Positions 48,317-63,153 of a stretch of DNA of 64,000 bases are shown piece by piece. Where the stretch lies: positions 875,332-939,331 of the forward strand of contig AZIN01000001.1 in NCBI GenBank assembly GCA_000511875.1, read 5' to 3'. The position numbers were made by a program, and so were the translations under genes. The notes under the pieces are model-generated. The model was not told where the DNA came from, made no database searches, and saw only the letters and a program-made list of their open reading frames with translations. The stretch comes from Gammaproteobacteria bacterium MOLA455 (GTDB lineage: Bacteria; Pseudomonadota; Gammaproteobacteria; Pseudomonadales; Porticoccaceae). Positions within the stretch are counted from its first letter, which is position 1. Each line of letters begins with the position of its first letter.

Positions 48317-49558
48317 ATGAAGGACAACGCCAAAGCATTCGCAATCCGCCACCTGAGTTTGGCTGCAATGCTGATTATGAGTTCGATATTGGCTGGCCTT
48401 GCCAGCGCTCAGTCAAACATTCCTAGCTTTAAACAGAGCGATCCGGTCAGCGACTATTTAGATGCCATAGATATTGCCGAGGCTGAACTCAGCGCCTACT
48501 CCTTAGAACTCTCTGATCTCTACTTAGGCTTGGGTAAATCCCACCTCTCAAATCAGGAATATGACCGCGCCCGTCGAGCATTCCAGCGGGGCATGCAAAT
48601 TGAACGGGTCAATTTTGGCCTCAATAGCCTGACCCAAACGCCCTATTTAATGTCGATTGCCGACACCGAAAGTTTTCTCGGCAACTGGGATGAATCACAA
48701 AAAGCCCTGGAAAATCTCTACCTGATCAACAGTGAGGCCTACGGTGCCCAAGACATACGCATGCTGCCAATTCTAGAAGAGCTACTCGATTGGTACCTGG
48801 GCACCTACAGCGATCGCTCCACCAATGGCGGCTACCAAAATCTGGTTATCTCTGAAAAGCTCGGCGTGCGCATGCAGAGTATTCTCAATCAGACTGATAA
48901 CCGCAGCAATTCTGAGGCCCCGCGGATGTATCGCAAGCTCAGCCATCTGCACTACTCTATCGCCAGCCATATTAAAAAGTATGGTGAGCCTTCTGAGACT
49001 GGATTTACCTTTAATGCGGCGTCCACCACCAAAGCCGCTAATAGCACTTCACATATGCACTATCGTCGCGGCAAGCTGGCCCTGCAAAAAGTAGTTGAAG
49101 TACTGGAACTGCAAGAGGACACCCCGGTGCGAGACCAGGCCAATGCGATCGCCGAGCTGGGAGACTGGTATCTGGTGTTTGGTCAACGTTCATCGGCAAA
49201 CCAAAGCTACAAGCTGGCCTATGATTTTCTTGGCCAAAGTGAGCAACCAGAGCAGTTGCAAGGAGCGTTGTTTGGTCAAGCCAGACTGATTGAATTCACC
49301 GATATCAGCAACACAGCTAGACAGGAAAAGCTTGCAGACAGGGCCTTGGAAATCTCCATGACCATCACGACCAATGGTACGCCGCGGAATATAGAGATTA
49401 TTAACCCACCGGAAGATCTCGATAAAAATGTCCGCCGCACTATTTTTAAAGATATCCGCGCCCAGCGTTACAGGCCCAAATTAGTCGAGGGAGAGCCGAT
49501 TGGTACCACAATCCAATTTCCCTACGAAATCAGCCGAACCGTCGAAACAAGAGACTAA
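48317..49558 (+). CDS. Envelope cluster gene 1: TPR protein with a TonB-C-like end
   Basis: 413 residues; a GGGGGGAG site precedes the ATG. Signal peptide about 10-31 (ASA-QSN). Several TPR-like helical hairpins (for example YLGLGKSHLSNQEYDRARRAF, about 70-90, and a later one at about 285). The last 75 residues, LEISMTITTNGTPRNIEI then VRRTIFKDIRAQRYRPKLVEGEPIGT, follow the TonB C-terminal (periplasmic contact) pattern. There is no internal transmembrane helix, so it is periplasmic or lipid-free exported. It opens the 14-gene cluster, 2 bases before the next gene. Confidence 0.7.
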   Translation: MKDNAKAFAIRHLSLAAMLIMSSILAGLASAQSNIPSFKQSDPVSDYLDAIDIAEAELSAYSLELSDLYLGLGKSHLSNQEYDRARRAFQRGMQIERVNFGLNSLTQTPYLMSIADTESFLGNWDESQKALENLYLINSEAYGAQDIRMLPILEELLDWYLGTYSDRSTNGGYQNLVISEKLGVRMQSILNQTDNRSNSEAPRMYRKLSHLHYSIASHIKKYGEPSETGFTFNAASTTKAANSTSHMHYRRGKLALQKVVEVLELQEDTPVRDQANAIAELGDWYLVFGQRSSANQSYKLAYDFLGQSEQPEQLQGALFGQARLIEFTDISNTARQEKLADRALEISMTITTNGTPRNIEIINPPEDLDKNVRRTIFKDIRAQRYRPKLVEGEPIGTTIQFPYEISRTVETRD

Positions 49559-49560
49559 TA

Positions 49561-50352
49561 ATGAGTAATGATTTTACTAAAAATACCTGCCCTGGTTTAG
49601 CGTCAAAAGCACCGCAATTGTCTATTCGACGTTCTATCAAGCGGCTTTTTAAAGGGCCTCTGGGATCGTCTCTGAACCTGCCCCTCAACACAGCAGTAGC
49701 TGCTATGTTGACTGTAGTTCTGAGCAGCTGTCAGATGCCATCTCCCACTAGTTCTGGGTCACCCATGCCCTCTTCCTCTGGAGGTGGCTCATCTGGCCTA
49801 CCGCCAAGCTCTCCCAACCCCGGTGGCGGCATGCCCTCCCCCGGTGGCAGCCCGACACCATCTGGTGGGCCTCCTGCAGGAGCTGATGGCTCTTCTCGCG
49901 CTGACTCAGGCAGTGGAGAAAGTACAGCAAGCCTAGACGAGACCTTAGACGCTTCTTTAGAAGAATTTGATGATAGGGTTATGGGCAGCGATGGCGGCTC
50001 CAGCGATATAGATATCCTCAGTCCAAGCGGCTCGAGTGGCGCTATCGACAGTGATGAACCGCTATTTGAAGAGGCCGGTGAAGGAGGCTCTGATCGCAGC
50101 GCTTCCGTAGAACAGCGTGCCGCTGACGGGGCGCCTCCAGGAACTGAGGGTAATGAGGGTTCGGGCAACCAATCGGCTAGCACTGCAGGTCAGGATGAAG
50201 CTGATATTATTCCCATCCCAGAGGATATAGATGACGGCCAGGGAGATGATATTGTGCTGCGCCAAATTCGTGACGCAGCTAGCAAAGAACAGGATCCAGA
50301 TCTCAGAGAGAAACTCTGGGATGAGTATAGACGTATAAAGAATCAGAGTTAG
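49561..50352 (+). CDS. Envelope cluster gene 2: low-complexity Ser/Gly/Pro lipoprotein
   Basis: 263 residues. A long N-terminus precedes a signal-like helix and the lipobox VLSSC (C about 59). After it, residues 60-115 are nearly all Ser, Gly and Pro (SSGGGSSGLPPSSPNPGGG), then an acidic stretch. The last 35 residues form an ordered charged helix (DIVLRQIRDAASKEQDPDLR). The layout suggests a long flexible tether from the membrane to a short interaction helix. AAGAGA lies just before the ATG. No family recognised. Confidence 0.65.
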   Translation: MSNDFTKNTCPGLASKAPQLSIRRSIKRLFKGPLGSSLNLPLNTAVAAMLTVVLSSCQMPSPTSSGSPMPSSSGGGSSGLPPSSPNPGGGMPSPGGSPTPSGGPPAGADGSSRADSGSGESTASLDETLDASLEEFDDRVMGSDGGSSDIDILSPSGSSGAIDSDEPLFEEAGEGGSDRSASVEQRAADGAPPGTEGNEGSGNQSASTAGQDEADIIPIPEDIDDGQGDDIVLRQIRDAASKEQDPDLREKLWDEYRRIKNQS

Positions 50353-50366
50353 CCAAAGTGACCAAC

Positions 50367-51569
50367 ATGAGTAATCGACTTATCGCTTCCAAGCCAAACC
50401 AACTTACAATCCTAGCCCTGCTGCTAATCATTGGCTGCAGCTGCGCCAGCGCGGCGGTGGACAAGGTCACCTCTTCCACCAAGCTGACGCTCGACACTCC
50501 CTCTCGGGCCTATCCAGTGGAAAGCTTGTTAGATGTAGGAATACCCACATTAAACGACGGCCTATATCTCACCGATGAAGACGACACTGTGTTTCCCGAA
50601 GTGCGTTACGCTGAGGCAATCTATTTTTCCAACCAGTTAGGCAAAGTATTAGAGAAAAGCGGAGCCTGGGGCGCGATTCGTGTCACCCCCAGCAGCGACG
50701 TGATTATGGATCTCTATATCAGCGGCACCATCTATCAATCCGACGGTGAAACCATGGACTTGGAAATCACCGCCACCGATAGCAGCGGCAAAAAATGGTT
50801 TAGCAAACGCTACAAACAGACCACAGGAAAGTACGCCTACGACAGACGCTTAAAAAGCCTTGGCGACCCCTTTCAAAATCTGTTTATTCGCGTCGCCAAT
50901 GACCTGCTCAACTACCGCGAAAAGAAGATTAGCGATCAGCGTGCCAAAGAACTGCGCACCATTTCCGAACTGCGCTTTGCCAAACAGTTTTCCCCCGAGG
51001 CATTTGACAGCTACATCGATGAAAACCGCAAAGGTATTTTAACCGTTGCCCGGCTGCCCGCCGAAAATGACAGTATTCTTCTGCGAGTGCGCAAAATTCG
51101 CGAGCGCGACTACCTCTATATAGACCGTATGCAAGATTACTACGATGGCTTCTCGCAACAGATGCACCTTGCCTATCAGGACTTTCGCCGCGCCTCCTAT
51201 GATTCAGTGGTCCGCGCCCGACAGCTAAATCAACAGGGTAACAAACAGATCTTTAGTGGTATTGGCGCGATTCTGGCGGGCATCTATGGACGCTCGCAGG
51301 CGCGCACAGGCATTGCCGATGACGCTGGCACAGCCACTGCAGCCGTGGGTGGTTTTGTACTCAAAGCCGGCCTCGACAAAAAGCAGAAAGCCTCTGAATT
51401 TAATGAATCCGTAGCCGAGATGGGCTCTTCTCTGGAAGCTGAAATCGCTCCCCAAGTGATTGAACTGGAAGATCGCACCGTGACCCTCACCGGCACAGTG
51501 CAGGCTCAGTATCAACAGTGGCAAGAACTGCTGGGAAAAATCTACCAACAGGAACGTGGGACGCTCTAA
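50367..51569 (+). CDS. Envelope cluster gene 3: exported protein of unknown function
   Basis: 400 residues from ATG 50367; a GTG three codons upstream is also possible. Signal peptide to about 30, with a possible lipobox (LIIGC). An N-terminal alpha/beta part (about 55-165, with DLYISGTIYQSDGETMDLEITATDSSGKKWF) is followed by a helical region (LLNYREKKISDQRAKELRTISELRFAKQF) and a glycine-rich segment IFSGIGAILAGIYG. The end is a coiled helix. I do not recognise a family. It is fixed in place by tight spacing on both sides (5 and 3 bases). Confidence 0.6.
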   Translation: MSNRLIASKPNQLTILALLLIIGCSCASAAVDKVTSSTKLTLDTPSRAYPVESLLDVGIPTLNDGLYLTDEDDTVFPEVRYAEAIYFSNQLGKVLEKSGAWGAIRVTPSSDVIMDLYISGTIYQSDGETMDLEITATDSSGKKWFSKRYKQTTGKYAYDRRLKSLGDPFQNLFIRVANDLLNYREKKISDQRAKELRTISELRFAKQFSPEAFDSYIDENRKGILTVARLPAENDSILLRVRKIRERDYLYIDRMQDYYDGFSQQMHLAYQDFRRASYDSVVRARQLNQQGNKQIFSGIGAILAGIYGRSQARTGIADDAGTATAAVGGFVLKAGLDKKQKASEFNESVAEMGSSLEAEIAPQVIELEDRTVTLTGTVQAQYQQWQELLGKIYQQERGTL

Positions 51570-51572
51570 TCT

Positions 51573-53003
51573 ATGGGTAAGCCGATCACCACTGACAGCA
51601 AACAAAAAGGGCTACAAAAGCTCGCCATAGCCCTATTACTGCTATTGGCCTCTGCTGTGATCTTTGTATTACCCAGCTTAGTTTCAGAACCCTGGATCAG
51701 CGGCTCAGATCAATCACAGCGAGTGACAGTCCCTTCACCCACAGTTGTCAGCCCCTCAACCGCAGCACAAAAAACCCAGTATCGCCGAAATGCCCAGACA
51801 GTTCTGGCGGAGATTATTCAGCGCCGCGACCGCCTGCTCAATGAGCGTGGCGTCGAGCAGTGGGGAGCGTTTGAATTTAAGCAGGCGCAAAAAGCGGTTG
51901 AGCGCGGCGATCAAGAATATGGCTTTGGCGACTACAAGGATGCCTTGAACAGTTATCAAAGTGCTCTGGACGGCCTCGCTGAGCTTGAAGGCAAAGCCCA
52001 AGCACTTCTTCAACAGGCGATTGAGGACGCCACGGTGGCAATTGAAAACTCAGTGCTCAGCACTGCGATTAACGCCACGACATTGGCCTCAGCCATTGCC
52101 CCAGAAAATCGCACTGTGATCCATCTAAGTCAGCGAACGCTGAGTTTGCCAATAGTTATAGATGCCATGGAGCTGGGTGATCAACTGGTCGCGCTGGATA
52201 GACTAAACCGGGCTCGGCAGGCTTTCACTGAGGCGGTTACTGCCGACCCCGAGCACAAGAAAGCCGCTGCCGCCCTCGCCTCGACAGAACAGAAAATCAC
52301 TGAACAGCGCTTTCGCAGTTATATGAGTGACGGCTTCCGCGCACTGGACAAGAATAGGTTTACAGCTGCCACTGAGGCCTTCGAACAAGCTGGCACTGTC
52401 TATCCAGCTCATGCTGCTGTTGCTCAAGCATTGGCTCAGGTTGAGACACGCCGCTCCCAGCTCTGGGTGAGTAATCAAATTGCCCAGGCCTCTGAACTCG
52501 AAGCTCAGGAAAAATGGCCACAGGCTGCTGAGATATATAAACAGCTGTTGGCAACTGACGGCACACTCACCGAGGTAAGAGTAAAGCAGATACCAGTGAT
52601 GGTGCGTGCCGATCTCGACAAGCGAATTAGGAAAACCCTCAGTGACCCACTGGCACTCTCCACAACAAGTCAATTTCGCCGCGGCCAAAAAGTCCTTCAG
52701 GATGCCAGCGGTATCCGCAATCCAGGGCCGGTGTTACAGCAGCAAATAGCCGACCTGCAGCAGGCACTTAAAGCCTCGCAGAATCTAATTCAAGTGCTGC
52801 TGACCTCAGACAGCAATACCGATGTGACACTGTTCAGGGTAGCCAAACTCGGGGCCTTCGACAAAACCGCTGTCTCCCTAAAGCCCGGCCGCTATATAGT
52901 TGCCGGCACAAGGATGGGCTTTCGCGATGTCAGGATTGAATTCACAGTGACAGATCAGGGCCTTGATAAGCCAATCAGTATTAGCTGTAACGAAGCTATT
53001 TAA
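51573..53003 (+). CDS. Envelope cluster gene 4: membrane-anchored TPR protein
   Basis: 476 residues. One transmembrane helix at about 15-33 (LAIALLLLLASAVIFVLP), with the rest periplasmic. Repeating helical pairs (AFEFKQAQKAVERGDQEYGF, RQAFTEAVTADPEHKKAAA, ATEAFEQAGTVYPAHAAVA, QAAEIYKQLLATDG) are TPR-like. The C-terminal 75 residues form a beta domain (VTLFRVAKLGAFDKTAVSLK, GRYIVAGTRMGFRDV) that looks like a PEGA-type fold. It probably pairs with the PEGA protein next door. Confidence 0.65.
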   Translation: MGKPITTDSKQKGLQKLAIALLLLLASAVIFVLPSLVSEPWISGSDQSQRVTVPSPTVVSPSTAAQKTQYRRNAQTVLAEIIQRRDRLLNERGVEQWGAFEFKQAQKAVERGDQEYGFGDYKDALNSYQSALDGLAELEGKAQALLQQAIEDATVAIENSVLSTAINATTLASAIAPENRTVIHLSQRTLSLPIVIDAMELGDQLVALDRLNRARQAFTEAVTADPEHKKAAAALASTEQKITEQRFRSYMSDGFRALDKNRFTAATEAFEQAGTVYPAHAAVAQALAQVETRRSQLWVSNQIAQASELEAQEKWPQAAEIYKQLLATDGTLTEVRVKQIPVMVRADLDKRIRKTLSDPLALSTTSQFRRGQKVLQDASGIRNPGPVLQQQIADLQQALKASQNLIQVLLTSDSNTDVTLFRVAKLGAFDKTAVSLKPGRYIVAGTRMGFRDVRIEFTVTDQGLDKPISISCNEAI

Positions 53004-53065
53004 TAACAGGCTGTTAAATAAATAGCCGCTCAACAGTCGCCAGTGCAAACAAAACTAAAAAAATT

Positions 53066-55024
53066 ATGGTCAAGACAAAAAACACTACGCCGCTCTCCGC
53101 CACAGACTTTACGCCACTGGAAGCCAAGCCAGTCAAAGGTCGCAGCCGCCCATCGCCAGTAGTTATGTTTACCACTCTTTTTACCGTTGTGGCCATTGCC
53201 ATACTGGTTTTTTTGTTTGCCGCTCGAGCCATTATTTTACGTCTGGATCCAGCCACAGCAGAGGTGGATTTGGGCGCTTTGGCATTTCATATTGGCGACA
53301 ATTATTTACTGCTTAAAGGTGAACACCATCTAAGCGCAACAGCCCCAGGCTACTATCCCCTGCACAAAACTATCCAAGTTAGCGGAGAAGCCACTCAAGA
53401 AATCGATGTAGAACTGCAGCCACTGCCCGGCAATTTACTGGTGCGCTCAACGCTCGACAATATACAGCTATCTATCGACGATCAGGATGTCGGTAGCGTG
53501 CCCGGTACGATCAACGAAATTAGCCGCGGCGCCCACAAGCTGGAGTTCGCCAAATACCGTTATTTCACCTTGCAACAAGAGGTGGATATTGAGGGACTGG
53601 GCAAAACCCAAGCCATTGATATAAGCCTGCAGCCAGCCTGGGGACAGCTTGAGTTCACCACAGTGCCTGAAGGCGCCGAACTATTTATCGACCAGCGCCT
53701 AGTTGGCCAGACACCATGGAGCGCTGAGGTACTGGAGACCGGCAGTCAGCTGACCCTTGTCGCCCCTGGCTATAAAACCCTGCAACGGCAGGTGAGCGTC
53801 AAAGCTGGCACCAAGGCCGAGCATCCACTGATCGAGATGATCGTCGCCGATGGGACCGTTGCCATCAACAGCTCGCCGCAAGGGGCCAGCATTACTATCG
53901 ACGGGCAGTTTAAAGGCACCACACCTATGGATGTGGCTGTAACGCCCTTTGCTACACACAAGATTGAATTGTTCCTCGAAGGCTATCTCAATGCCGAGCG
54001 CTCGGTCAGCGTTAAACCCGAGCAACAGCGTCAAATCAGCGTTGATCTGACCCCTAACATAGGCACAGTGCGACTCAATATCACACCGGCTGATGCGACC
54101 ATTTTAGTGGATGGCAAACGCCGTGGCAGTGGCAGCCAAACCCTCTCCCTAAACGCCAAGCCCCACAGTATAAGTATCGAAAAAAGCGGTTACGAAACCA
54201 AGTCCATGACGGTAACACCTAGACCCGGGCTCCAGCAGGCAATGACCATTAAGTTGCTGACATTGCAGCAAGCCTATTGGGCCTCGCGACCGGCGACAAT
54301 TAAGACAATGGTTGGCAGCACACTGAAACTGTTTCAACCCAATGGTCAATTTAAGCGCTGGAAAGATCGACACAGCTCAACGGCGGTAAAAGGCCAAACT
54401 CTGGACATGGCCGACCAACCAGTGGTCAAAGTCAGCTGGGAAGATGCCGCACTGTTCTGCAACTGGCTGAGTCGCAAAGAAGGCCTGCCGGCATTTTATG
54501 TTGTTGAAGAGGGGCGTATTAGCGGCACTAACTGGGATGCTCATGGCTACCGGCTGCCCACCGAGGCCGAATGGGCCTGGGCCGCAAGAATTGACGGGCA
54601 ATCAAACAGCCGGGTCTTCCCCTGGGCCAATGAGCTCTACCCGCCTATGCAAATCAGCGGCAACTATGCGGATCAAAGTGCTAGAGGATTTCTCAGCTTT
54701 ACCCTGCCCAACTACAACGATCAGTATCCGGTCTCTGCGGTGGTTGGCAGTTTCTCAGCTAACAGCAAAGGGCTCTATGATATGAGCGGTAATGTCGCCG
54801 AATGGGTCAATGACTACTTTGATATACGCCCCAATCGCAGTGACGCTGACGTGGATCCCCGGGGGCCCGAGACAGGCACTAAGCATGTGATTCGCGGCGC
54901 CAGCTGGGCCCTTGCCTCACGTACCGAGCTGCGCCTCAGCTATAGGGATTCTGGCACTGATGGGCGGATTGATTTAGGCTTTAGGATAGCGCGCTACGTG
55001 GATAAACCAGGCCGAACGCTGTAG
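53066..55024 (+). CDS. Envelope cluster gene 5: membrane-anchored PEGA-repeat protein with a pseudo-FGE (SUMF1-fold) domain
   Basis: 652 residues. Short cytoplasmic N-terminus, one transmembrane helix (about 31-55), then four to five PEGA domains (for example PEGAELFIDQRLVGQTPW, PQGASITIDGQFKGTTPMDV, PADATILVDGKRRGSG). The C-terminal part (about 415-648) is a formylglycine-generating-enzyme fold: VSWEDAALFCNWLSRKEG, YRLPTEAEWAWAARIDG, YDMSGNVAEWVNDYF, and GFRIARYV at the end. The FGE active-site cysteine pair is missing (VIRGASWALASRTELRLSYR), and the N-terminal FGE half is short. I infer a structural or ligand-binding role, not sulfatase activation. Confidence 0.8.
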   Translation: MVKTKNTTPLSATDFTPLEAKPVKGRSRPSPVVMFTTLFTVVAIAILVFLFAARAIILRLDPATAEVDLGALAFHIGDNYLLLKGEHHLSATAPGYYPLHKTIQVSGEATQEIDVELQPLPGNLLVRSTLDNIQLSIDDQDVGSVPGTINEISRGAHKLEFAKYRYFTLQQEVDIEGLGKTQAIDISLQPAWGQLEFTTVPEGAELFIDQRLVGQTPWSAEVLETGSQLTLVAPGYKTLQRQVSVKAGTKAEHPLIEMIVADGTVAINSSPQGASITIDGQFKGTTPMDVAVTPFATHKIELFLEGYLNAERSVSVKPEQQRQISVDLTPNIGTVRLNITPADATILVDGKRRGSGSQTLSLNAKPHSISIEKSGYETKSMTVTPRPGLQQAMTIKLLTLQQAYWASRPATIKTMVGSTLKLFQPNGQFKRWKDRHSSTAVKGQTLDMADQPVVKVSWEDAALFCNWLSRKEGLPAFYVVEEGRISGTNWDAHGYRLPTEAEWAWAARIDGQSNSRVFPWANELYPPMQISGNYADQSARGFLSFTLPNYNDQYPVSAVVGSFSANSKGLYDMSGNVAEWVNDYFDIRPNRSDADVDPRGPETGTKHVIRGASWALASRTELRLSYRDSGTDGRIDLGFRIARYVDKPGRTL

Positions 55025-55107
55025 CCCGCGCGCCGCGCCACAACCCCTGAGGTCGTCAGATCACTGATCTGGCGAAAGGAGAGAACAGATCAAACAAGAG
55101 CGATTCT

Positions 55108-55380
55108 ATGAGCAAAATTGTTAAATTTTTATGCGCTACAGGGGTTCTAGCCACTATGCTCGGCTCGTCGGTGCTGTGGTCACAAAATACTCCGGAGATA
55201 ACAGCATCTCAGGCCGACGACGCTGTTGCGCAAAATACGTCTCAACCAACAGTTGAACCAGATAAGTCATCGCAGGCAAAAGAGTCGGCGACAGCCACTG
55301 AAAGAAAACCCCTAGGAGATTTTAAGCCCGGCGAGGAGATCTCTGAAGATTTCCCGGTGCCACTGCCATCGGATATTTAG
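55108..55380 (+). CDS. Envelope cluster gene 6: small exported acidic protein
   Basis: 90 residues. Signal peptide about 1-25 (VLWSQ). The mature part is polar and mostly disordered (Ser, Gln, Thr, Glu), ending GDFKPGEEISEDFPVPLPSDI. No family is known to me. Flanked by spacers of 83 and 52 bases, so it may have its own ribosome-binding site; GGCGAAAGGAGAG lies some way before the ATG. Confidence 0.5.
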   Translation: MSKIVKFLCATGVLATMLGSSVLWSQNTPEITASQADDAVAQNTSQPTVEPDKSSQAKESATATERKPLGDFKPGEEISEDFPVPLPSDI

Positions 55381-55432
55381 ATCAACTGAACATTAAGCAG
55401 CCCTCAGAAGACTGCGATAACAGGAGCCTTTA

Positions 55433-56227
55433 ATGAAAAGTCACACCAACGAAATGTTTTTTCAACTAGTCGCCCTGCTGCTGGCAGTAATTGTCGTGCA
55501 TGCGATTTTTGTCACTGTAGTGCGCCCCAATGCCGAGAGCACTATCCGTCACCATGCTGAGATGGCCGCTGCGGGTGAAGATTACGAGGTGCCGAAATCG
55601 TTTTTTATTGTTATCAAAGACCTTGAGCAGGAGGCCTGTTTTATTCTGATGATCTGGGCCCTGGCGATTATGGGTTACAAGACCCGCAATGCCCTGCGCG
55701 AACAAAAAATATTCTCAAGTCCCCTGATTAATATCAGTGAAGGATCCAGAGTGTTGCCAGAGGATGCCAGTCAGCTGGCGCGACCACTGCAATCATTAGA
55801 CGATATGCAGCGCTCACTGCTGCTGCCCCGGGCCCTGCAAACTGCATTGACACGCTTCCAGGTCACCGACAGCGTGCAGTCCGCCACCGACGCGGTAAAC
55901 GTTGTCTGTAACAATGAAAACGATCGATTGGATTCGGAACTCTCCATGGTTCGCTATATCACCTGGGCGATTCCATCGATCGGCTTCATTGGCACAGTGC
56001 GCGGTATAGGTGCTGCACTGGGTCAGGCTCACGAAGCCATGCAAGGCAATATTGCCGGTGTTACCAGCAGTCTTGGTGTGGCCTTTAACTCAACTTTTAT
56101 TGCCCTGCTAATCAGCATGGTGGTGATGTTTTTTATGCATCAGTTACAACTTGTTCAGGAGCGCTTAGTACTCGACTCTCACGCCTACTGTGAAAACAAC
56201 TTGCTGCGCTTTTTAAAGGCCAAATAA
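55433..56227 (+). CDS. Envelope cluster gene 7: MotA/TolQ/ExbB-type proton channel
   Basis: 264 residues. Hydrophobic segments at about 10-30 and 66-84, a cytoplasmic helical region (about 85-165), then the conserved pair WAIPSIGFIGTVRGIGAAL (about 179-197) and VTSSLGVAFNSTFIALLISMVVMFFMH (about 206-232). The GFIGTVxGI and LGVAFNSTFIAL stretches are the MotA/TolQ/ExbB signature, with threonines lining the proton path. The partner TM with an aspartate (ExbD, TolR, MotB) is not encoded next to it; vWA proteins with an Asp at the start of their first helix are. Confidence 0.87.
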   Translation: MKSHTNEMFFQLVALLLAVIVVHAIFVTVVRPNAESTIRHHAEMAAAGEDYEVPKSFFIVIKDLEQEACFILMIWALAIMGYKTRNALREQKIFSSPLINISEGSRVLPEDASQLARPLQSLDDMQRSLLLPRALQTALTRFQVTDSVQSATDAVNVVCNNENDRLDSELSMVRYITWAIPSIGFIGTVRGIGAALGQAHEAMQGNIAGVTSSLGVAFNSTFIALLISMVVMFFMHQLQLVQERLVLDSHAYCENNLLRFLKAK

Positions 56228-56230
56228 ATC

Positions 56231-57553
56231 ATGCGTCTCGCTGTCCTCGAACTCAATGATCAAGCTCTGCTGATTAAAAATCAGGATGGCGAGGTATTCT
56301 CCGAACCCGGTTTTGCCCTGCACACTGGCGAAGGCATTGTCACTGGCCTCGAGGCACGTAAACAGGCGTGGCTGCAACCCCAAAACGTCTACCGCCAGTA
56401 CTGGCGCAATCTCAACCAGACCGAATTATCCGGCGATTTGCGCTGGGCAAGACACCACGCCGACATTGCCTTTGCCCAGTTGAAAACACTGCTCAACAGC
56501 GCCGGTTCACCTGAACAATTGGTCATCAGTGTCGCCGCCTGTTTCGATGATGAACAGCTATCGTTATTGCTGGGACTACTCAGTGCAATTCCGACCCAGG
56601 TAATAGGGATTGTCGATAGCAGCCTCGCCGACTGTATTTATATAGCAGACCATGTTCACGGCCCGAAAGAACAAGAAAAAACTACATTGCATATAGATCT
56701 GCACCTTTTTCAATCAGTCGTCAGCCAAATTACCTTCGGCGAAAACAGCGTTCAGATCACCGCTCAGCGTGTGCTGCCAGAACTGGGGGCCATGGATATT
56801 TACGCCCTATTAGCCAGACATATCCGCGACAAGTTAGTGAAGAATTTTCGCTTTGATCCCATGGACGCACCCCAGGGAGAACAGGCAATCTATGACCTGC
56901 TCCCGGACTGGGTCATACGCTTTGAGTCTCAGTCGGAATACGGAATGGTAATTCCCTCACCGCGGGGTGACCTGCCGGTGATGCTGTATAAGTCGGAAGT
57001 CCTAGAGCTGCTCTCAAGCCGACTAAATAAACTCACCTCGATGCTGCGACAATTTTCTGGCAACGATGTCAGCTTTTCGAAAAATGCGCGGATGATTTCC
57101 ATACTGACCGATGAGTTTCACGCCTCAAGACATTTAAAAGCGCATCAGGGTGTCGATAGCTGCTTTAAATTTGCCGATGACTTGATTGCCAATACCTCAC
57201 TTACTGAAAGTGACGATCTGCACCGAATCACCTCAATTGAGCAACTGCAGGACAAGTCTGCGAAGCCGCCGCTGGACGTCAGGCTTCCTGGCACTGCCAC
57301 GCACCTGCTCTACCAGGGGCTAGCCTGGCCGCTGCAGCAACCTCTAAGCATCACCATAGAGAGTAACCGAGTTCAAGTTTTAGAGGGCCATTGCGACAGC
57401 GCAACAGCCGTGCTGACAATCAAAGGCGAGGAGGTTATAGCTCTGCACAAAAACCCCAACGCCATAGTGGAATTACCCCATATAGCCCTCTGCGGTATGG
57501 AGTTGTATATCAACGCCTACAAATTTGAGTTAATCGAGGTCTGCAATGGCTAA
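56231..57553 (+). CDS. Envelope cluster gene 8: cytoplasmic protein, possible actin/Hsp70-fold ATPase
   Basis: 440 residues, no signal or membrane helix. MRLAVLELNDQALLIKNQDG looks like the phosphate-1 hairpin of actin/Hsp70 folds, and PGFALHTGEGIVTGLEARKQA like the following Hsp70-type segment. TTLHIDLHLFQSVVSQITF could be the phosphate-2 strand. The catalytic-site match is weak, with no clear DLGT. Its end overlaps the first vWA gene by 8 bases. I infer a cytoplasmic, nucleotide-binding or regulatory subunit of the channel complex. Confidence 0.5.
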   Translation: MRLAVLELNDQALLIKNQDGEVFSEPGFALHTGEGIVTGLEARKQAWLQPQNVYRQYWRNLNQTELSGDLRWARHHADIAFAQLKTLLNSAGSPEQLVISVAACFDDEQLSLLLGLLSAIPTQVIGIVDSSLADCIYIADHVHGPKEQEKTTLHIDLHLFQSVVSQITFGENSVQITAQRVLPELGAMDIYALLARHIRDKLVKNFRFDPMDAPQGEQAIYDLLPDWVIRFESQSEYGMVIPSPRGDLPVMLYKSEVLELLSSRLNKLTSMLRQFSGNDVSFSKNARMISILTDEFHASRHLKAHQGVDSCFKFADDLIANTSLTESDDLHRITSIEQLQDKSAKPPLDVRLPGTATHLLYQGLAWPLQQPLSITIESNRVQVLEGHCDSATAVLTIKGEEVIALHKNPNAIVELPHIALCGMELYINAYKFELIEVCNG

Positions 57554-58604
57554 AAAGCGTCGCAATATTGCCTTTAGCCTCTCATTTCTCGACATCATGG
57601 CCTGCGGCTTTGGTGCAGTGACTCTGCTATTTTTGATTTTGCGCCACAATGTCACCGAAATTGTTACTCCAGATCCACGACTCGCCTCTGAAGTAGAGCT
57701 GTTACAGGAAGATATTCGCCAAGCTGAAGAATCAAAGACTCAACTCTTAAACAGCCTCGAGCAATTACAGCTTGAATTGGTTAAAGCTCAGGGCGCTTCA
57801 GACCGAGTGCTCACGGATCTCGAAGAAATCGAAAGAAGTATTCAATCCGACCCCAGAGACGATATCGCCAAACTGCGCCGCCAGGTGGAACAGCTCGAAG
57901 AGCAGACTGCCGAAATGGAAGAACTGGATTTTGGCGACAAAGTGCGCGAGTTTCTCGGAGACGGTAACCGTCAATATCTCACCGGTTTAAAACTCGGCGG
58001 CGAGCGAGTGATTATTCTGGTCGACGGCTCCGCCAGTATGCTCGCGGACACCGTGGTCAATGTGGTGCGACGGAGAAATATGAGCGACGCAGATAAACAG
58101 CAGTCACCGAAATGGCAGTGGACATTGCGCACAGTAGAATGGCTGTTGGCGCAGCTGCCGCCCAGCAGTCGCTTTCAAGTCTATATATTTAATACAGAAG
58201 CCCAGCCAGCCCTTGTAGGCTCCGAGGGGGAGTGGCTCGACGCGGCGGACTCACTGGTTCTGGAGCAGGTTGTGGCAAGTATTCGCCAATACTCCCCGGG
58301 GAATGGCACCAGCCTGATTAATGCTATCAACGCGATCAATGATTTCGACGATCAGCCCGACAATATATTTATTCTCACCGATGGCCTGCCCACTCAGGGC
58401 GCCACGCCACCGAAGAAATACATGGTCAGTGGCCAGCAGCGCCGCAGCTACTTTGCCAACGCCCTAGATAGCCTGCCCGGAGGCATGCCGGTAAATACTA
58501 TTCTGTTCCCAATGGAGGGCGATCCCGAGGCCGCTGCCCTATTCTGGCAACTTGGCGTAACCACTCAAGGGGCTTTTATTGCGCCCTCAAGGGATTGGCC
58601 ATGA
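57546..58604 (+). CDS. Envelope cluster gene 9: membrane-anchored vWA protein
   Basis: 352 residues. The N-terminal helix (about 11-32, LSFLDIMACGFGAVTLLFLI) is followed by a long coiled coil (about 45-127), then a von Willebrand factor A domain. Its metal site is complete: D160-G-S162-A-S164 (VIILVDGSASM), a Thr in NGTSLINAINAI, and Asp in FILTDGLPTQG. The vWA part would be periplasmic. The Asp in the FLD of the helix resembles the proton-carrying Asp of ExbD/TolR. It overlaps the genes on both sides. Confidence 0.8.
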   Translation: MAKKRRNIAFSLSFLDIMACGFGAVTLLFLILRHNVTEIVTPDPRLASEVELLQEDIRQAEESKTQLLNSLEQLQLELVKAQGASDRVLTDLEEIERSIQSDPRDDIAKLRRQVEQLEEQTAEMEELDFGDKVREFLGDGNRQYLTGLKLGGERVIILVDGSASMLADTVVNVVRRRNMSDADKQQSPKWQWTLRTVEWLLAQLPPSSRFQVYIFNTEAQPALVGSEGEWLDAADSLVLEQVVASIRQYSPGNGTSLINAINAINDFDDQPDNIFILTDGLPTQGATPPKKYMVSGQQRRSYFANALDSLPGGMPVNTILFPMEGDPEAAALFWQLGVTTQGAFIAPSRDWP

Positions 58605-59590
58605 AACGTCAGCGCCGCGAATTTCAGGAGGCCAGCATCTCGTTTCTCGACGTTATCAGCTGTGGCTTTGGCGCAATTGTGCTGTTACTGGTGATCGCCA
58701 AGGTCGGAGACCCCGGCGCCCTGGAAGAGGCAGAAAAGGCCTTGCGCGGCACAGTTAAAGAATTCCAACAGCAACTATTTGATGTGCGCGGTGAATCTGT
58801 GGTGCTCAACGATCAGCTCAAGTCGCGAAAGGAGCAGCTCTCAGAACTGCTTGACCGGGTGGCACGGCTCAAGGCCAAGCTCGCCAGCGTCGACAAACAG
58901 GCAGCGGCTATCTCCCTGTCTCAGGCACGAGAAACCGAACAGTTACAGCTGGTGATGCAAATCCTCACCGAAGAGATGGAGCGCCTGGTCGGTCCAGAGT
59001 TTAAACAGCAAAACAATCTGATCGGCGGCATCCCCGTGGACAGTGACTATATTATTTTTGTTATCGACACCTCCGGCAGCATGCAGGTAGCTGCCTGGGA
59101 ACGGGTAAAAAAAGAGATGATCAATATTCTCGATATTTATCCCGATGTCAAAGGTATACAGGTACTCAATGATATGGGCCAGTATATGTTCTCCGCCTAT
59201 CGCGAGCGCTGGATTCCCGACAGCCCAAAGATGCGCGAAGAGATCATTACCACCCTCGGCAACTGGGCACCCTTCAGTAACTCGAGCCCGGTGGAAGGCA
59301 TTAATGCCGCGATCCAAACCTTTTATCAACGAGAGCGCAAAATCAGTATCTACACTCTGGGGGATGATTTTCAGGGTCGCACTATTAGAAACGTGGTTCG
59401 CGCTGTAGACAAACTCAACCGTGCTCATCTTGGCGCCGACCGATTAGTCCGCATTCACGCCATTGGCTTTCCTGTGCATTTTGCTCGGGGCGGTGCACCC
59501 AGTCCATCGGCGATCAAGTTTGCCGCATTGATGCGTGAATTAAGTTACAACAACGGGGGAACCTTTATTGGCTTAAACAGCCTTAACTAA
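58601..59590 (+). CDS. Envelope cluster gene 10: second membrane-anchored vWA protein
   Basis: 329 residues from the ATG at 58601, which overlaps the previous stop (ATGA). It has the same plan as gene 9: helix with ISFLDVISCGFGAIVLLLVI (about 13-32), coiled coil (about 40-130), and a vWA domain with YIIFVIDTSGSMQ (DxSxS) and a SPVEGINAAI segment. The Thr/Asp positions are less standard (SNSS, LGDDF), so metal binding may differ from gene 9. The two vWA genes look like diverged duplicates. Confidence 0.8.
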   Translation: MKRQRREFQEASISFLDVISCGFGAIVLLLVIAKVGDPGALEEAEKALRGTVKEFQQQLFDVRGESVVLNDQLKSRKEQLSELLDRVARLKAKLASVDKQAAAISLSQARETEQLQLVMQILTEEMERLVGPEFKQQNNLIGGIPVDSDYIIFVIDTSGSMQVAAWERVKKEMINILDIYPDVKGIQVLNDMGQYMFSAYRERWIPDSPKMREEIITTLGNWAPFSNSSPVEGINAAIQTFYQRERKISIYTLGDDFQGRTIRNVVRAVDKLNRAHLGADRLVRIHAIGFPVHFARGGAPSPSAIKFAALMRELSYNNGGTFIGLNSLN

Positions 59591-59602
59591 AGGGATACGA
59601 AT

Positions 59603-60226
59603 ATGCCAACAACTAAAATAACAATTTTCTCAGTGCTACTAACAGTGCTTTTTATCAGCGGCTGCAGCTCTTCATCGCAGGTGCAGATCGACTCACAATT
59701 CCCCTCAGTGGTGTCAAAACCCAAGCCGGTTAAAGCCGCCATTGTCTTCAGTGAAGAGTTTAAAAGCTATATTGCCAACCCCAACAGCAAAACCAGTATA
59801 GATATGGGCAGCGCCCAGACCAAGCTGCTGAGCAATGCCTTTGCAGGCCTGTTTAAGCGGATAGAATTTGTCTCTGCAGCAACAGAGGTGAGTTTTGACA
59901 ACGCACTGGTGATTACGCCGTCAGTGCAGGAAGTGCAGGTCTCCACCCCGTCAGACACCTATCTCAACGTCTATGAAGTGTGGATCAAATACAGTCTCGA
60001 TATTAAAACCGCCGATGGCGATCAGGTGGATAGCTGGTTTATGCCCGCCTACGGCAAAACACCGGACTCCTTTATGCTCTCCAAAACCAATGCTATCGAA
60101 GAAGCCGCGGTGATCGCGCTGCGGGATGCCGGCGCCAAACTGCTGCTCGACTTCTATCGCATACCCAGTGTTTACAATTGGGTGGTCACAGAGCAGATAC
60201 CCCTCGATGAAAAGGAGGTCCAATAG
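59603..60226 (+). CDS. Envelope cluster gene 11: lipoprotein
   Basis: 207 residues. Signal sequence with lipobox FISGC (C about 21) followed by serines. The mature part is mostly beta with one helix, including VKAAIVFSEEFKSYI, VEVQVSTPSDTYLNVYEVW and MLSKTNAIEEAAVIALRDAG, a pattern I associate with DUF-type outer-membrane-assembly lipoproteins but cannot name. The stop touches the next start. Confidence 0.55.
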   Translation: MPTTKITIFSVLLTVLFISGCSSSSQVQIDSQFPSVVSKPKPVKAAIVFSEEFKSYIANPNSKTSIDMGSAQTKLLSNAFAGLFKRIEFVSAATEVSFDNALVITPSVQEVQVSTPSDTYLNVYEVWIKYSLDIKTADGDQVDSWFMPAYGKTPDSFMLSKTNAIEEAAVIALRDAGAKLLLDFYRIPSVYNWVVTEQIPLDEKEVQ

Positions 60227-60885
60227 TGAATAAATTAATCGCACTCTGTGCCGCAGCCCTGCTCGCTGGTTGCGGCGCAACCACCACCATCGACGAATAC
60301 CGTCCCAACAATCAGGTTTTGGATATTAATAGCGAACAGTCAGTGGTAATTCTCGGTCGTCGCGATGCCGGACATTATGATACTGACAGGGAGTTTATTG
60401 ACTGTGTCGCCAAAAAAATGCAAGGCGCGGATATAGGTGTATTCCCCGAACAGCAATTTGTCGATGCAATTTATCCCTGGTTTGAACCGCGCACCGCACC
60501 CAAAGGACTCAAGCGTTTGCGACGGCTTATGGAAGACACCGCGATCAAACAACAGATAGAGCACAACGGCATACGCTACTTGGTGTGGCTCGATGGTTCT
60601 ACCGAGACCCATGACAAAGGCGGTTCAATCAGCTGCGCCATAGCGCCAGGTGGTGGTGGCTGTTTCGGTTTCGCCCAGTGGGAGAAAAGCTCCATCTACG
60701 AAGCCATAGTTTGGGATATGACCAACCTTACGGAAAAGGGCCGATTGCGCGTGGACTCCTCAGGAACCTCCTACCTGCTTGGTGTGGTCGCACCAATACC
60801 CCTTTTGACACCGGTTAAAAATGATGCCTGCGCCAGTCTTGGCACCCAGCTAAAACAGTTCTTCACCTTAGATCAGCCCCTATGA
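60226..60885 (+). CDS. Envelope cluster gene 12: lipoprotein
   Basis: 219 residues from a GTG start that overlaps the previous stop by one base (TAGTG). The lipobox is LLAGC (C about 16). Mature part starts with TTTIDEYRPNN. Contains an odd small region SCAIAPGGGGCFGFAQWEKSS with two cysteines around a glycine run. No family recognised. The stop overlaps the protease start (ATGA). Confidence 0.55.
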   Translation: MNKLIALCAAALLAGCGATTTIDEYRPNNQVLDINSEQSVVILGRRDAGHYDTDREFIDCVAKKMQGADIGVFPEQQFVDAIYPWFEPRTAPKGLKRLRRLMEDTAIKQQIEHNGIRYLVWLDGSTETHDKGGSISCAIAPGGGGCFGFAQWEKSSIYEAIVWDMTNLTEKGRLRVDSSGTSYLLGVVAPIPLLTPVKNDACASLGTQLKQFFTLDQPL

Positions 60886-62372
60886 ATAAGTACCTAGCCC
60901 GACCATTGATCTGTCTCGTATTACTCGCCCCTGGGCAGGCGGCGGCAAAAATTACAGGGGCCGATTTCTATAAAGAAGTACTTCAGGGTACCCCGATCTA
61001 CGACGACCCGGCGCTGGACAGTTATATTAGAAAACTTGGCGAAGAGATCGTAGCCGAGTCAGAAATGGCCGGCGAAAAATTCATCTTCACCCTCCTCGAC
61101 TCCCCGGACCTGAATGCCTTCGCCACTAGGGACAACTATGTCTACGTCAATCGCGGCCTACTTAACTATGTTAGTAATGAGGCACAGTTGGTCTCGGTGC
61201 TGGCCCATGAAGTGGGTCATATCACCCGCAAACATGTCACCGGCCAGGAGGGCAAAGCCACAGGCGCCCAGATTCTCTCCACTGTAGCCGCAATACTCTC
61301 CGGCAGTGGTGAGGTCTATGAAGCAGGCATGGCATACGCCAACTCGTTGATTCGCGGTTACGGCCGGCGCAACGAGCTGGAAGCTGATGAAGCTGGTGCC
61401 GAATATATGGCCAAATTGGGCTATGCACCCAGTGAAATGATCAGCATGCTGTCGATAATGAAAGATTATGAACTGCTGCAAAAAGACCGCGCCAGAGCCA
61501 AAGGCGCCAGCAAGCAAACCTATCATGGTATTTTTTCCAGCCACCCGCGCAATGACTCACGGCTGCGCACAGTGGTGAGCAAAGCCAAAACTTTTCAGGC
61601 GCAACAGTCTCGTGGTGACGGCGCAGCAACCTACCGTCAGCTCACCGAAGGTTTGATCTGGGGGGAAAACTTTCTCGCCAAGGAGGTCAAACCTCAACGC
61701 TACTCGGATATGACACTGCGGGTGCGCTTCGATTATCCGGAGGGTTGGAAACAGACTAATGACAGCAAAACTCGCAGTTCAATTGGCACTTCAGTGAGTG
61801 TTGCAACCAGTGATGCAAGCGAGGCTAAAGACAGCACGTCAACCGACCCTTCAGACAACATTCCAGCCAGCAAACTTGAAACTGGGGATGCGAAATTGGC
61901 TATGCTACCCATAGCTCGCACTAGCCAGACGCCTGAAGAGTATCTCTACAACCATCTCAAGGTTGCAAAACTGGACCAGGGCAGCGCCATATCCCCAGCA
62001 GGGTTAAAAGGATTTAGCGGCATCTTGCCCGGTAATGGCGACAAGCCAGACAGTCGCATTGCGGTGATCTATTACAAGCGCAATGCCTATATCTTTACCG
62101 GAGAGGTGAGCAGAGCAGAACTCTTCCCTGAGGCAGACAAGCTGTTTAGACAATCGATCGCCACCTTTAGGCCGATTTCCCGCCGCGAGATCGACGGTCA
62201 AAAACCGAAGCGGATTCACTACGTCAAAGCAACCAACGCCACCACCTTTGAAAAGCTCGGCAAAGCCTTAAATCTTAGCCTATCTGAAGTCGACGACCTG
62301 CGTATAATCAACGGCCATTACCCCAGCGGCGAACCCAAGGCCGGTGATTGGATAAAGATTTTTAAACAGTGA
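60882..62372 (+). CDS. Envelope cluster gene 13: BepA-like M48 metalloprotease with LysM-like end
   Basis: 496 residues. Signal peptide about 1-22. Peptidase M48 domain with VLAHEVGHITRKH (zinc His109 and His113, catalytic Glu110) and the third zinc Glu in RRNELEADEAG (about 167). The following 150 residues are linker-like, with a Thr/Ser/Asp-rich patch. The last 50 residues (IHYVKATNATTFEKLGKAL... GDWIKIF) resemble a LysM peptidoglycan-binding domain. M48 members with this plan act in outer-membrane protein quality control. Possibly processes cluster components. Confidence 0.85.
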   Translation: MNKYLARPLICLVLLAPGQAAAKITGADFYKEVLQGTPIYDDPALDSYIRKLGEEIVAESEMAGEKFIFTLLDSPDLNAFATRDNYVYVNRGLLNYVSNEAQLVSVLAHEVGHITRKHVTGQEGKATGAQILSTVAAILSGSGEVYEAGMAYANSLIRGYGRRNELEADEAGAEYMAKLGYAPSEMISMLSIMKDYELLQKDRARAKGASKQTYHGIFSSHPRNDSRLRTVVSKAKTFQAQQSRGDGAATYRQLTEGLIWGENFLAKEVKPQRYSDMTLRVRFDYPEGWKQTNDSKTRSSIGTSVSVATSDASEAKDSTSTDPSDNIPASKLETGDAKLAMLPIARTSQTPEEYLYNHLKVAKLDQGSAISPAGLKGFSGILPGNGDKPDSRIAVIYYKRNAYIFTGEVSRAELFPEADKLFRQSIATFRPISRREIDGQKPKRIHYVKATNATTFEKLGKALNLSLSEVDDLRIINGHYPSGEPKAGDWIKIFKQ

Positions 62373-62379
62373 TAAGACC

Positions 62380-63153
62380 TTGATCAAACTACCCACAACG
62401 CGGCCTGGTTTCTTACTTTTACTGCTGGCTGTTGTTTTAGCCGTCAGTACGGCCGCCTATTGGCTTGCTAGAGACGTCCCCGAGCTCAATTCGTCAAGTG
62501 GCATTGATGCACTGACCAATGTCGACAGCGCGGCACTACAGCACCGTATCAACAGCAAACTATTTGGCGAAGCCATCACCGCCCCCCCTGGTATAGGCGC
62601 TGAGATTCATAGCACCACTGATACATTGGCTATGGACAAAAAATTGGCCGGATTAACCAAGAATGTCACCACTCAGCAGTTGCCCAGCGCCAATGCGCTG
62701 GCGGTATTTTACAAGCTTAATAAACAGCGCTATCGCAACCCATCCATATTTTGGCTTGAGGTGATTAGCTTCACCACAGCCAAACACGGCGGTCGTGTTT
62801 TCGAGAGAGCAGAGCAAGAACTGGATACAGAGCAACCACCAGTGGCAGACCTTAGGGATCAGCACTCTGCCATATCAACTATTGAGCTTGGAAATATCTA
62901 CGGGCAGCGCTTTGTCGACAGTTTGATGGAGATCGAGCAGGCTCCTTTAGAGAGCTCTATAGAGAGTTCTGTAAAGAGCAGAATAGAAAGCACATCTCTT
63001 CCCTGCTGGTACGGGCCCATCAGTTCATCCCTGGGAGCGCATTTGGTTTGTATCAAGAGAGTCACTTGGGGGGATTACCCACCCCTTGAAGAGGTGGAGA
63101 ATCAATTGATCAATGACTGGCGATTCTCAGTCACTCAGGACGCGTTTAATTAA
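62380..63153 (+). CDS. Envelope cluster gene 14: membrane-anchored parvulin-like (PpiC-type) protein
   Basis: 257 residues from a TTG start (no upstream ATG is in frame). One transmembrane helix (about 11-30). The later part resembles a PpiC/SurA-type parvulin-like domain: RYRNPSIFWLEVISF, a region with RFVDSLMEI, and CWYGPISSSLGAHLVCIKR, which corresponds to the parvulin closing motif GPISS..G.H.V.V. The catalytic residue pattern is weak, so chaperone activity is more likely than isomerase. It is the last gene of the plus-strand cluster, convergent with trpA. Confidence 0.6.
   Translation: MIKLPTTRPGFLLLLLAVVLAVSTAAYWLARDVPELNSSSGIDALTNVDSAALQHRINSKLFGEAITAPPGIGAEIHSTTDTLAMDKKLAGLTKNVTTQQLPSANALAVFYKLNKQRYRNPSIFWLEVISFTTAKHGGRVFERAEQELDTEQPPVADLRDQHSAISTIELGNIYGQRFVDSLMEIEQAPLESSIESSVKSRIESTSLPCWYGPISSSLGAHLVCIKRVTWGDYPPLEEVENQLINDWRFSVTQDAFN

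Follow-up and report, generated by a model that had tools for sequence, protein, structure and literature searches.

A conserved bacterial gene cluster pairing a TolQ-type channel with two vWA proteins, a candidate rotary motor of the cell envelope

Fourteen genes, here named g1 to g14, lie on the plus strand at positions 48317 to 63153 of the window, the stretch of 64,000 nucleotides analysed in this work, which belongs to the 2.6 Mb genome of Gammaproteobacteria bacterium MOLA455. An initial annotation described them as an envelope cluster where a MotA/TolQ/ExbB-type channel stands without ExbD and two vWA proteins come in its place, and proposed an ion-driven machine for which no named system was known. 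Here we describe the gene content of the cluster, the order and co-occurrence of its genes among bacteria, their conserved residues and the predicted fold of g8. The cluster is a real and conserved bacterial gene set, the grouping of which is far from chance, and it probably builds an ion-driven rotary motor of the envelope, in which a pair of vWA proteins would form the shaft and act on ring lipoproteins at the outer-membrane side, with g8 on the cytoplasmic side. All fourteen open reading frames (ORFs) were verified, and the tight spacing described for them holds for 10 of the 13 junctions, which overlap or span at most 12 bp; the wider gaps lie 5′ of g5 (62 bp), g6 (83 bp) and g7 (52 bp). 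The genes are the following:

48317..49558, plus strand: g1, TPR protein with an N-terminal hydrophobic segment and a TonB_C-like end; accessory
49561..50352, plus strand: g2, Ser/Gly/Pro-rich low-complexity lipoprotein; core
50358..51569, plus strand: g3, lipoprotein with a FlgT/PelC/CsgG/TolB-N-like domain (residues ~43-197) and long helices; core
51573..53003, plus strand: g4, TPR protein anchored in the membrane; core
53066..55024, plus strand: g5, transmembrane segment, five PEGA repeats and an FGE-sulfatase-fold domain without the Cys pair; core
55108..55380, plus strand: g6, short protein, N-terminal hydrophobic segment followed by an acidic, Ser/Thr-rich remainder
55433..56227, plus strand: g7, channel subunit of the MotA/TolQ/ExbB type; motor core
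56231..57553, plus strand: g8, degenerate Hsp70 fold of the nucleotide-binding domain (NBD) with a C-terminal FHA-type domain, probably cytoplasmic
57546..58604, plus strand: g9, vWA protein 1, putative axle helix (D16), coiled coil and MIDAS-type motif
58595..59590, plus strand: g10, vWA protein 2, putative axle helix (D19; D17 if the ATG at 58601 is used as the start), coiled coil and MIDAS-type motif
59603..60226, plus strand: g11, lipoprotein; accessory
60226..60885, plus strand: g12, lipoprotein with four additional invariant Cys; accessory
60882..62372, plus strand: g13, M48 metalloprotease with a BepA-like front half; accessory
62380..63153, plus strand: g14, N-terminal hydrophobic segment and a weak Rotamase_2 match; neighbour, probably outside the system

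The channel and its putative vWA partners

The assignment of g7 to the MotA_ExbB family is clear (PF01618, E 5.7e-14 with Pfam), and two of its residues, T188 and T221, are invariant in the 36 aligned sequences and align with T145 and T178 of TolQ in a PDB profile match, itself weak (E 0.017). Among 131 distinct g7 proteins, the GTVR motif is present in all and both threonine motifs in 130, the sole exception to the second motif reading FNYT, with the Thr retained. The best curated model for this channel is TolQ (3.9e-8), with a score of 33.3 bits that falls short of the cut-off of 221. As the initial annotation had noticed, no ExbD accompanies this channel, since none of the fourteen proteins gave a PF02472 match with Pfam at E ≤ 1.

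The two vWA proteins share a common architecture, in which the first 35 residues comprise a basic tail plus one hydrophobic helix beginning with SFLD, followed by a coiled coil and the vWA domain. MotB, ExbD and TolR carry an ion-binding Asp at the position equivalent to that of the SFLD motif. In g9, the residues D16, D160/S162/S164 and D279 are invariant (23/23), and so are D19, D158/S160/S162 and D257 in g10 (23/23). Over the whole collection, this Asp is kept in the 148 distinct g10 proteins, 144 of which fit a Cys-containing regular expression and the other four read FLDIISSAFAA; an alternative count of 138/148 considers the first 170 residues only and misses ten ORFs with long in-frame extensions. 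For g9, the Asp was seen in 145 of 148 proteins, the three misses being truncated by a contig edge. The vWA domains themselves were matched weakly by Pfam (g9, VWA_3 at 5.4e-6, at the cut-off; g10, VWA at 0.0012, below it), and a PDB profile search with g9 returned coiled coils and, over the vWA stretch, a single weak match (E 0.053). A loose regular expression for DxSxS was positive in 148/148 g10 and 131/149 g9 proteins; as the 18 misses are confined to g9, most of them in Opitutales-type loci, the two vWA proteins are not interchangeable. Altogether, these features support, at the level of sequence, the placement of g9 and g10 where the channel g7 would otherwise have ExbD, TolR or MotB, which agrees with the initial annotation. 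A similar placement of the Asp is stated for the family of TolQ-vWA proteins described in the main text of a recent work (PMC12204202; see below).

A standard ExbD or TolR encoded elsewhere might nonetheless pair with g7, as the initial annotation had cautioned. The genome carries four ExbD copies, all outside the cluster, three of which lie, by position, beside MotA_ExbB genes, and its remaining MotA_ExbB gene adjoins a MotB-like ORF (MotB judged by eye). The fourth ExbD gene is alone, and no MotA_ExbB gene was seen within 1.5 kb on either side (L103:1495-1902; G000:C1:1677808-1678212). This lone ExbD occurs, at 79% identity or more, in 20 of the 23 genomes of the genus, that is, in 14 of the 16 with the cluster (own genome included) and in 6 of the 7 congeners that lack both g7 and g9, and because of the latter it was rejected as the missing partner of g7. 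It could be the second ExbD of a TonB system with two ExbB proteins, displaced in this genus. In 16 other genomes both families, MotA_ExbB and ExbD, were counted as totals rather than as pairs copy by copy.

Extent and conservation of the gene set

In most loci the homologues are not scattered singly across genomes, a distribution that would have spoken against a common machine. At the class level, 34 of 369 genomes matched a g9 query, 31 of them convincingly (own genome included), after three weak vWA-only matches (G160, G172 and G275) were set aside. Regions of up to twenty kilobases in gammaproteobacterial relatives carry these genes as well, for the most part in an unchanged order. Gene occurrence was counted over 15 further gammaproteobacterial genera, represented by 18 regions, the sample omitting 8 of 26 non-congeneric loci (L091, L094-L100) whose contigs were short or ended near the cluster. 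The genes found in most of these regions were g2 (18), g3 (16), g4 (18), g5 (18), g6 (16), g7 (17), g8 (14), g9 (18) and g10 (18), and the outer genes followed with g1 (9), g11 (9), g12 (8), g13 (6) and g14 (0). The gammaproteobacterial unit is thus g2-g10, with g1 and g11-g13 as frequent but optional accessories, and the extent of fourteen genes given initially was too large, because g14 is missing from all 18 regions and the accessories are present in half or fewer of them.

Gene order, too, is kept in most loci. In the 122 distinct loci holding g7, g9 and g10, these genes are always on a single strand, and 119 loci keep the order g7-(g8)-g9-g10, either with g8 (81) or without it (38), the remaining three reading g8-g9-g10-g7; a g8 match is therefore present in 84 of the 122. 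This count takes in only loci with the three genes, those cut by a contig end or split staying outside, and all loci were collected by a vWA motif or protein, so the gene-order figures are conditioned on those genes. Among 36 relatives, g7 and g9 are jointly present in 18 and jointly absent in 18 (two genomes with weak matches, G028 and G035, set aside), and the two genes are gained and lost as a pair. Within the genus of the window, 16 of the 23 genomes have both and seven have neither. The latter (G005, G006, G008, G010, G014, G020 and G021) comprise four of the five genomes of 1.2-1.4 Mb plus three of 1.9-2.3 Mb, the fifth small one (G012, 71% complete) retaining g7 and g9; genome reduction would explain part of the loss at most.

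Beyond these relatives, a DNA pattern for FLDxxxCGFGA detected at least 119 stretches in named genomes, with record titles seen for 80 of them. With profiles made from the gammaproteobacterial regions alone, 116 of the 119 stretches listed proved to contain g9 or g10; in another one (L197) g2-g8 are present and the stretch ends ahead of g9, and two (L194 and L214) gave no match to these profiles. Hosts among the matches listed include Pseudoalteromonas denitrificans DSM 6059, Seongchinamella unica, Desulfogranum marinum DSM 2058, Sneathiella, Rhodospirillales and Opitutales, so that, judging by record titles, the distribution spans Gamma- and Alphaproteobacteria, Desulfogranum and Opitutales. 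The order g2-g3-g4-g5-g7-g9-g10 was found again in records from delta- and alphaproteobacteria, Desulfogranum and Sneathiella among them; an exception is L240, where g4-g3-g2 lie on the opposite strand. Two genomes have their genes spread over several places. A gammaproteobacterial chromosome (G424; L234, L235 and L249) has g7-g8-g9 together and two g10-like genes at separate sites, and an assembly that is verrucomicrobial by its record title (G410; L231 and L232) carries g10 on one contig and a g7-g9 pair on another, leaving the vWA pair unlinked in that assembly.

Searches were extended to the phylum level. For g7, 30 of 398 genomes in the phylum of the window matched, 16 of them strongly (E<1e-40, own genome included), with 13 of these 16 in one family; the order g2-g3-g4-g5-g7-g9-g10 was also found in the four regions (4/4) of a further family in that phylum (L297-L300). 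In a phylum sample centred on Opitutaceae, 31 of 288 genomes matched g10, 18 of them strongly (E<1e-60), a figure that includes the centre genome of the sample and one found earlier. Only 1 of 12 regions of this sample (L287) shows the long order, and the other 11 have just g7-(g8)-g9-g10, with no g2, g3 or g5 nearby, so that g2-g6 are not obligatory neighbours of the motor genes. Two of these 11 regions list one vWA gene of the pair, and the genome search matched both. In three regions of this sample (L291, L292 and L294), a TPR gene resembling g4, on the opposite strand, and a gene resembling g13 occur just 3′ of g7-g8-g9-g10, which is a looser form of the same gene association.

A candidate envelope motor and its rivals

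The first partner of the core, g8, gave a confident model (pLDDT 92) with the NBD fold of DnaK (2v7y; VIA Z 29.0, 316 aligned residues, root-mean-square deviation 3.2, 15% identity), in agreement with its sequence profile (hmmsearch Hsp70, 1.3e-7), and the actin/Hsp70 guess of the initial annotation was thus right as to the fold. An FHA model matches the C-terminal part of 13 of 67 family members at E ≤ 0.1 (best 2.3e-14), the g8 of the window giving no match at this threshold. The first phosphate loop of Hsp70 proteins for ATP reads DLGT, whereas the g8 family consensus begins with ELND, and a DLQLHQ-type stretch is found in place of DLGGGT; lacking these loops, g8 probably does not hydrolyse ATP. 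An N-terminal hydrophobic segment is missing in 108 of 110 relatives, and 55 of the 110 have a hydrophobic stretch somewhere, which in the window protein (residues 110-128) lies inside the modelled domain. g8 is probably a cytoplasmic protein, and its Hsp70 fold is degenerate.

The partner g5 is the PEGA-pseudoFGE protein that had been recognised from the start, with five PEGA repeats (3.9e-51) and an FGE domain (4.2e-37) in Pfam. Its best NCBIfam model is GldK (9.2e-25), at 87.8 bits versus a cut-off of 350. The active site of FGE is a cysteine pair, and at most one Cys occurs in the last 260 residues of g5 in the 32 gammaproteobacterial rows (32/32, one of them a partial ORF), so that g5 is unlikely to be a sulfatase activator. 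According to PMC5915273, the catalytic residues are missing from many FGE-domain proteins of bacteria, the examples including proteins with PEGA.

As for the lipoproteins, of which the initial annotation had expected at least three, a lipobox regular expression was counted as positive in four (g2, g3, g11 and g12); the expression is loose and also flags Cys23 of g10, at the start of its hydrophobic stretch, which was not counted. Relatives of g2, where the lipobox Cys is Cys57, have the lipobox in 25 of 33 cases, and those of g3 in 36 of 54. The model of g3 (pLDDT 79) contains a domain with fold likeness to FlgT (VIA Z 11.8), PelC (11.0), CsgG (10.6) and the N-domain of TolB (8.9), a type of fold that serves in periplasmic and outer-membrane rings. 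The membrane-anchored g4 is one of the two TPR proteins (TPR_14, 5.7e-7; TPR_2 in 30 of 34 family members), with an N-terminal hydrophobic segment in 68 of 76 relatives, and g6 has a low-complexity Pfam match only. No convincing Pfam family was obtained in the scan of the window proteins for g2, g3, g8, g11 and g12.

By homology, we infer a 5:2 stoichiometry, an ion drive and a heterodimer of g9 and g10. In this model, a pentamer of g7 would be the ring of a 5:2-type motor, and one helix of g9 plus one of g10 would make the central axle, each giving an ion-binding Asp in place of ExbD, TolR or MotB. Ion flow through g7 would rotate the axle, with the coiled coils transmitting its turning to the periplasmic vWA domains, which may grip a partner through their metal (MIDAS) sites. 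The likeliest partner would be a ring or track at the outer-membrane side made by the lipoproteins g2 and g3 together with g5 and the TPR protein g4, and g8, on the cytoplasmic side, might anchor or gate the g7 ring upon phosphorylation. This logic parallels the way in which GldLM is proposed to drive the GldK/N ring of the type IX secretion system (T9SS), or TolQR to drive TolA/TolB/Pal, and by analogy the best reading of function is a T9SS/Tol-like motor acting on an outer-membrane ring. The turning of the axle by ion flow is proposed because of homology and a published model for a core of the same description, and the later steps are more conjectural: the ring partner, the role of g8 and the cellular purpose are speculative. 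Similarly, of the ion-driven envelope machine proposed initially, homology and conserved residues uphold the vWA pair at the ExbD/TolR/MotB site, and the adhesive or mechanical work of its vWA domains is, still, what we infer.

Several observations weigh against a motor of this kind. The PDB profile match of g7 to TolQ is weak, though its PF01618 match is clear; 38 of the 122 loci have no g8 match; DxSxS is absent in 18 of the 149 g9 proteins; 11 of the 12 Opitutaceae-centred regions go without g2, g3 and g5; and the loci were chosen through their vWA genes. Moreover, the ring likeness of g3 is a fold match, with no Foldseek match at E ≤ 0.001, and in the PDB the FGE domain of g5 scores about equally against FGE enzymes and PorK (3.4e-18 vs 5.7e-18).

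Going by description, the motor core is not new. In 2025, the work entitled 'Origin and Evolution of Bacterial Periplasmic Force Transducers' (Mol Biol Evol; PMC12204202) predicted TPH-vWA/TolQ-like motors, in which, according to its main text, a tolQ-like gene adjoins a heterologous vWA pair without tolR or exbD, a transpore helix bears a conserved Asp, the hosts are Proteobacteria and Verrucomicrobia with reference proteins from Idiomarina, and an AlphaFold 3 (AF3) model sets the Asp within a Thr ring, with the vWA helices inside the pentamer. Likened by description only, this is the same core as g7-g9-g10: here too a tolQ-like gene and a vWA pair are neighbours (on one strand in 122/122 loci), no tolR, exbD or motB is syntenic, as seen by the absence of PF02472 matches, and the transpore Asp and channel Thr are present at the residue level. 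Since TolR-free TolQ-vWA pairs, together with the Asp and the Thr ring, are already given in that publication, we do not claim the core as new, and the statement that no named system was known no longer holds. The larger partner set around the core (g8, g5, g4, g3 and g2) appears to be undescribed: in the main text of PMC12204202 the terms PEGA, sulfatase, formylglycine, Hsp70, DnaK and MIDAS do not occur and FHA turns up solely in the name FhaC, with figure 4c perhaps showing neighbours, and no description of the PEGA/FGE/Hsp70-FHA set was found in the open-licence PMC literature, which leaves most subscription journals and bioRxiv outside. The additions of the present work, set apart by that main text and not by its figures, appear to be the partner set, the Hsp70-FHA protein, the delta-/Desulfogranum representatives, the co-occurrence and co-absence seen among congeners, and the ruling out of the lone ExbD.

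Among known machines, the best working analogy is GldLM with GldK/N. The GldKLMN/PorKLMN system of type IX secretion and gliding likewise has a 5:2-type motor with a long axle protein in the periplasm, and its partner GldK/PorK has the FGE fold; GldK is the nearest NCBIfam model for g5, at a score below its cut-off as given above. The cluster differs in its vWA-bearing axle, its two axle genes and the extra PEGA and Hsp70-FHA proteins, and no NCBIfam match to GldL or GldM was obtained for g7, g9 and g10 at E ≤ 0.01 (NCBIfam includes models for both). The flagellar-type MotAB stator has a MotB with an OmpA-type peptidoglycan-binding end, whereas g9 and g10 bear vWA domains, and elsewhere the genome encodes a distinct pair resembling MotA and MotB (MotB by eye). 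For the plan of one ring gene and two axle genes, the analogy is AglRQS, the motor of Myxococcus gliding, where, to our knowledge, AglQ/S carry no vWA domain. Compared by architecture only, it has one TolQ-type and two MotB-type genes, each with an Asp helix, and a passage of PMC9389320 leaves open whether its axle is a heterodimer; the Myxococcus vWA protein is, in a passage of PMC13104615, a separate surface adhesin, CglB. Flagella, the Ton and Tol systems and gliding all depend on ion-driven 5:2 motors, and if the proposal is true, a broadly distributed two-protein vWA axle with an Hsp70-FHA partner would test this heterodimer question, as well as which part is fixed, ring or axle, with g8 as a candidate cytoplasmic anchor. 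The conserved neighbours also offer a concrete list of proteins for joint purification. A bolder proposal, which we advance tentatively, is that of a new trans-envelope rotary class: a 5:2 ion motor with an obligate vWA heterodimer axle, the degenerate Hsp70-FHA protein in the cytoplasm as a clutch or anchor of the ring that responds to phosphorylation, and a proteobacterial counterpart of the GldK/PorK ring, made of the PEGA/inactive-FGE protein and the FlgT/PelC/CsgG-like lipoprotein. Such a machine would move or secrete cargo at the outer membrane outside Bacteroidota.

An alternative would assign the cluster to Tol-Pal-type work, constricting the outer membrane or mobilising lipoproteins, with the vWA pair in the role of TolR/TolA and g3 in that of TolB. 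The likeness of g3 to the TolB N-domain (Z 8.9), the TPR protein g4, similar to CpoB in this respect, the TonB_C-like end in 9 of 21 g1 family members and the top rank of TolQ among the curated channel models (3.9e-8) fit this idea, and TolQR shares with the cluster the channel family, the Thr pair and the Asp helix. However, the TolQ score of 33.3 is far under the cut-off of 221, no ExbD/TolR, TolA, Pal or OmpA-type match was found among the fourteen proteins, the genome has other MotA_ExbB/ExbD pairs, and 7 of 23 congeners do without g7 and g9, which makes the system dispensable; we consider this alternative unlikely. A more improbable one dispenses with rotation: g7 would be a channel or sensor, the vWA proteins static anchors or adhesins, and the Asp would gate an ion flow that signals to g8 and its FHA domain. 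FHA and Hsp70-type folds are usual in signalling, g8 is found in 84 of the 122 loci and the MIDAS-type motif suggests ligand binding. Nevertheless, the channel Thr pair and the axle Asp are conserved in the manner of motors that produce force, the model in the main text of PMC12204202 puts the vWA helices of a similar system inside the pentamer, and g8 was not matched in 38 of the 122 loci.

Finally, an anti-phage motor like Zorya is very hard to reconcile with the data and was rejected, since from its set of ZorA, ZorB and an effector only the MotA-type channel is there, with a PADLOC ZorA match (E 0.0025) expected of any MotA relative, no ZorB, helicase or nuclease was matched (Pfam, 14 proteins; PADLOC, 7 of 14), and the cluster persists in 16 of the 23 congeneric genomes and sits beside genes of metabolic look (CoA-transferase and TrpA-like, judged by eye), its lipoprotein and TPR genes not being, as far as we know, parts of Zorya. 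The vWA/FHA/PEGA conflict systems (eLife 2020, PMC7159879) were also discarded, as ExbB, MotA or 'proton channel' appear nowhere in the main text of that article.

Accessory genes and lineage-specific companions

Promoter and terminator scans did not rise above shuffled sequence (9 vs 12.8 and 16 vs 16.8, respectively). The second TPR protein, g1 (TPR_12, 3.6e-8), had been credited with a TonB-C-like end, which falls below the cut-off in the window protein (22.0 vs 24.6 bits); the same model at E ≤ 0.01 matches the 9 family members mentioned (best 6.8e-7), the window protein being counted in the total of 21. The lipobox is present in 56 of 61 relatives of g11, where Pfam on 31 family members gave nothing useful, and in 45 of 56 relatives of g12, a protein with four invariant cysteines (C60, C137, C146 and C202; 21/21). 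Neither Pfam nor NCBIfam matched the window protein, and g12 is possibly a new lipoprotein family. For g13, described as an M48-LysM protease, the M48 part stands (Peptidase_M48, 5.4e-33; BepA model 7.5e-30, below the cut-off) and no LysM match was found with Pfam. The parvulin-like nature of g14 could not be sustained, its Rotamase_2 match being below the cut-off (22.0 vs 27 bits). This gene occurs in 9 of 9 congeners and in none of the 18 other gammaproteobacterial regions, with a match also in L138 (Porticoccaceae by record title) and L205, and is probably a mere neighbour.

A search among unassigned ORFs produced eight clusters present in at least four loci outside the genus, of which six were shadow ORFs over assigned genes, one was a mixture of ABC-type ATPases and one a real lipoprotein. 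The latter, of about 250 residues and encoded on the opposite strand, adjoins g7 in four Opitutales-type loci (L241:1054-2483, L242:4667-6377, L243:5945-7350 and L244:5576-7038), two of them titled Opitutales, and in L241, L243 and L244 it is followed by a Gly-rich lipoprotein of about 200 residues. In Opitutales-type loci, too, the putative motor is accompanied by lipoproteins, of another family.

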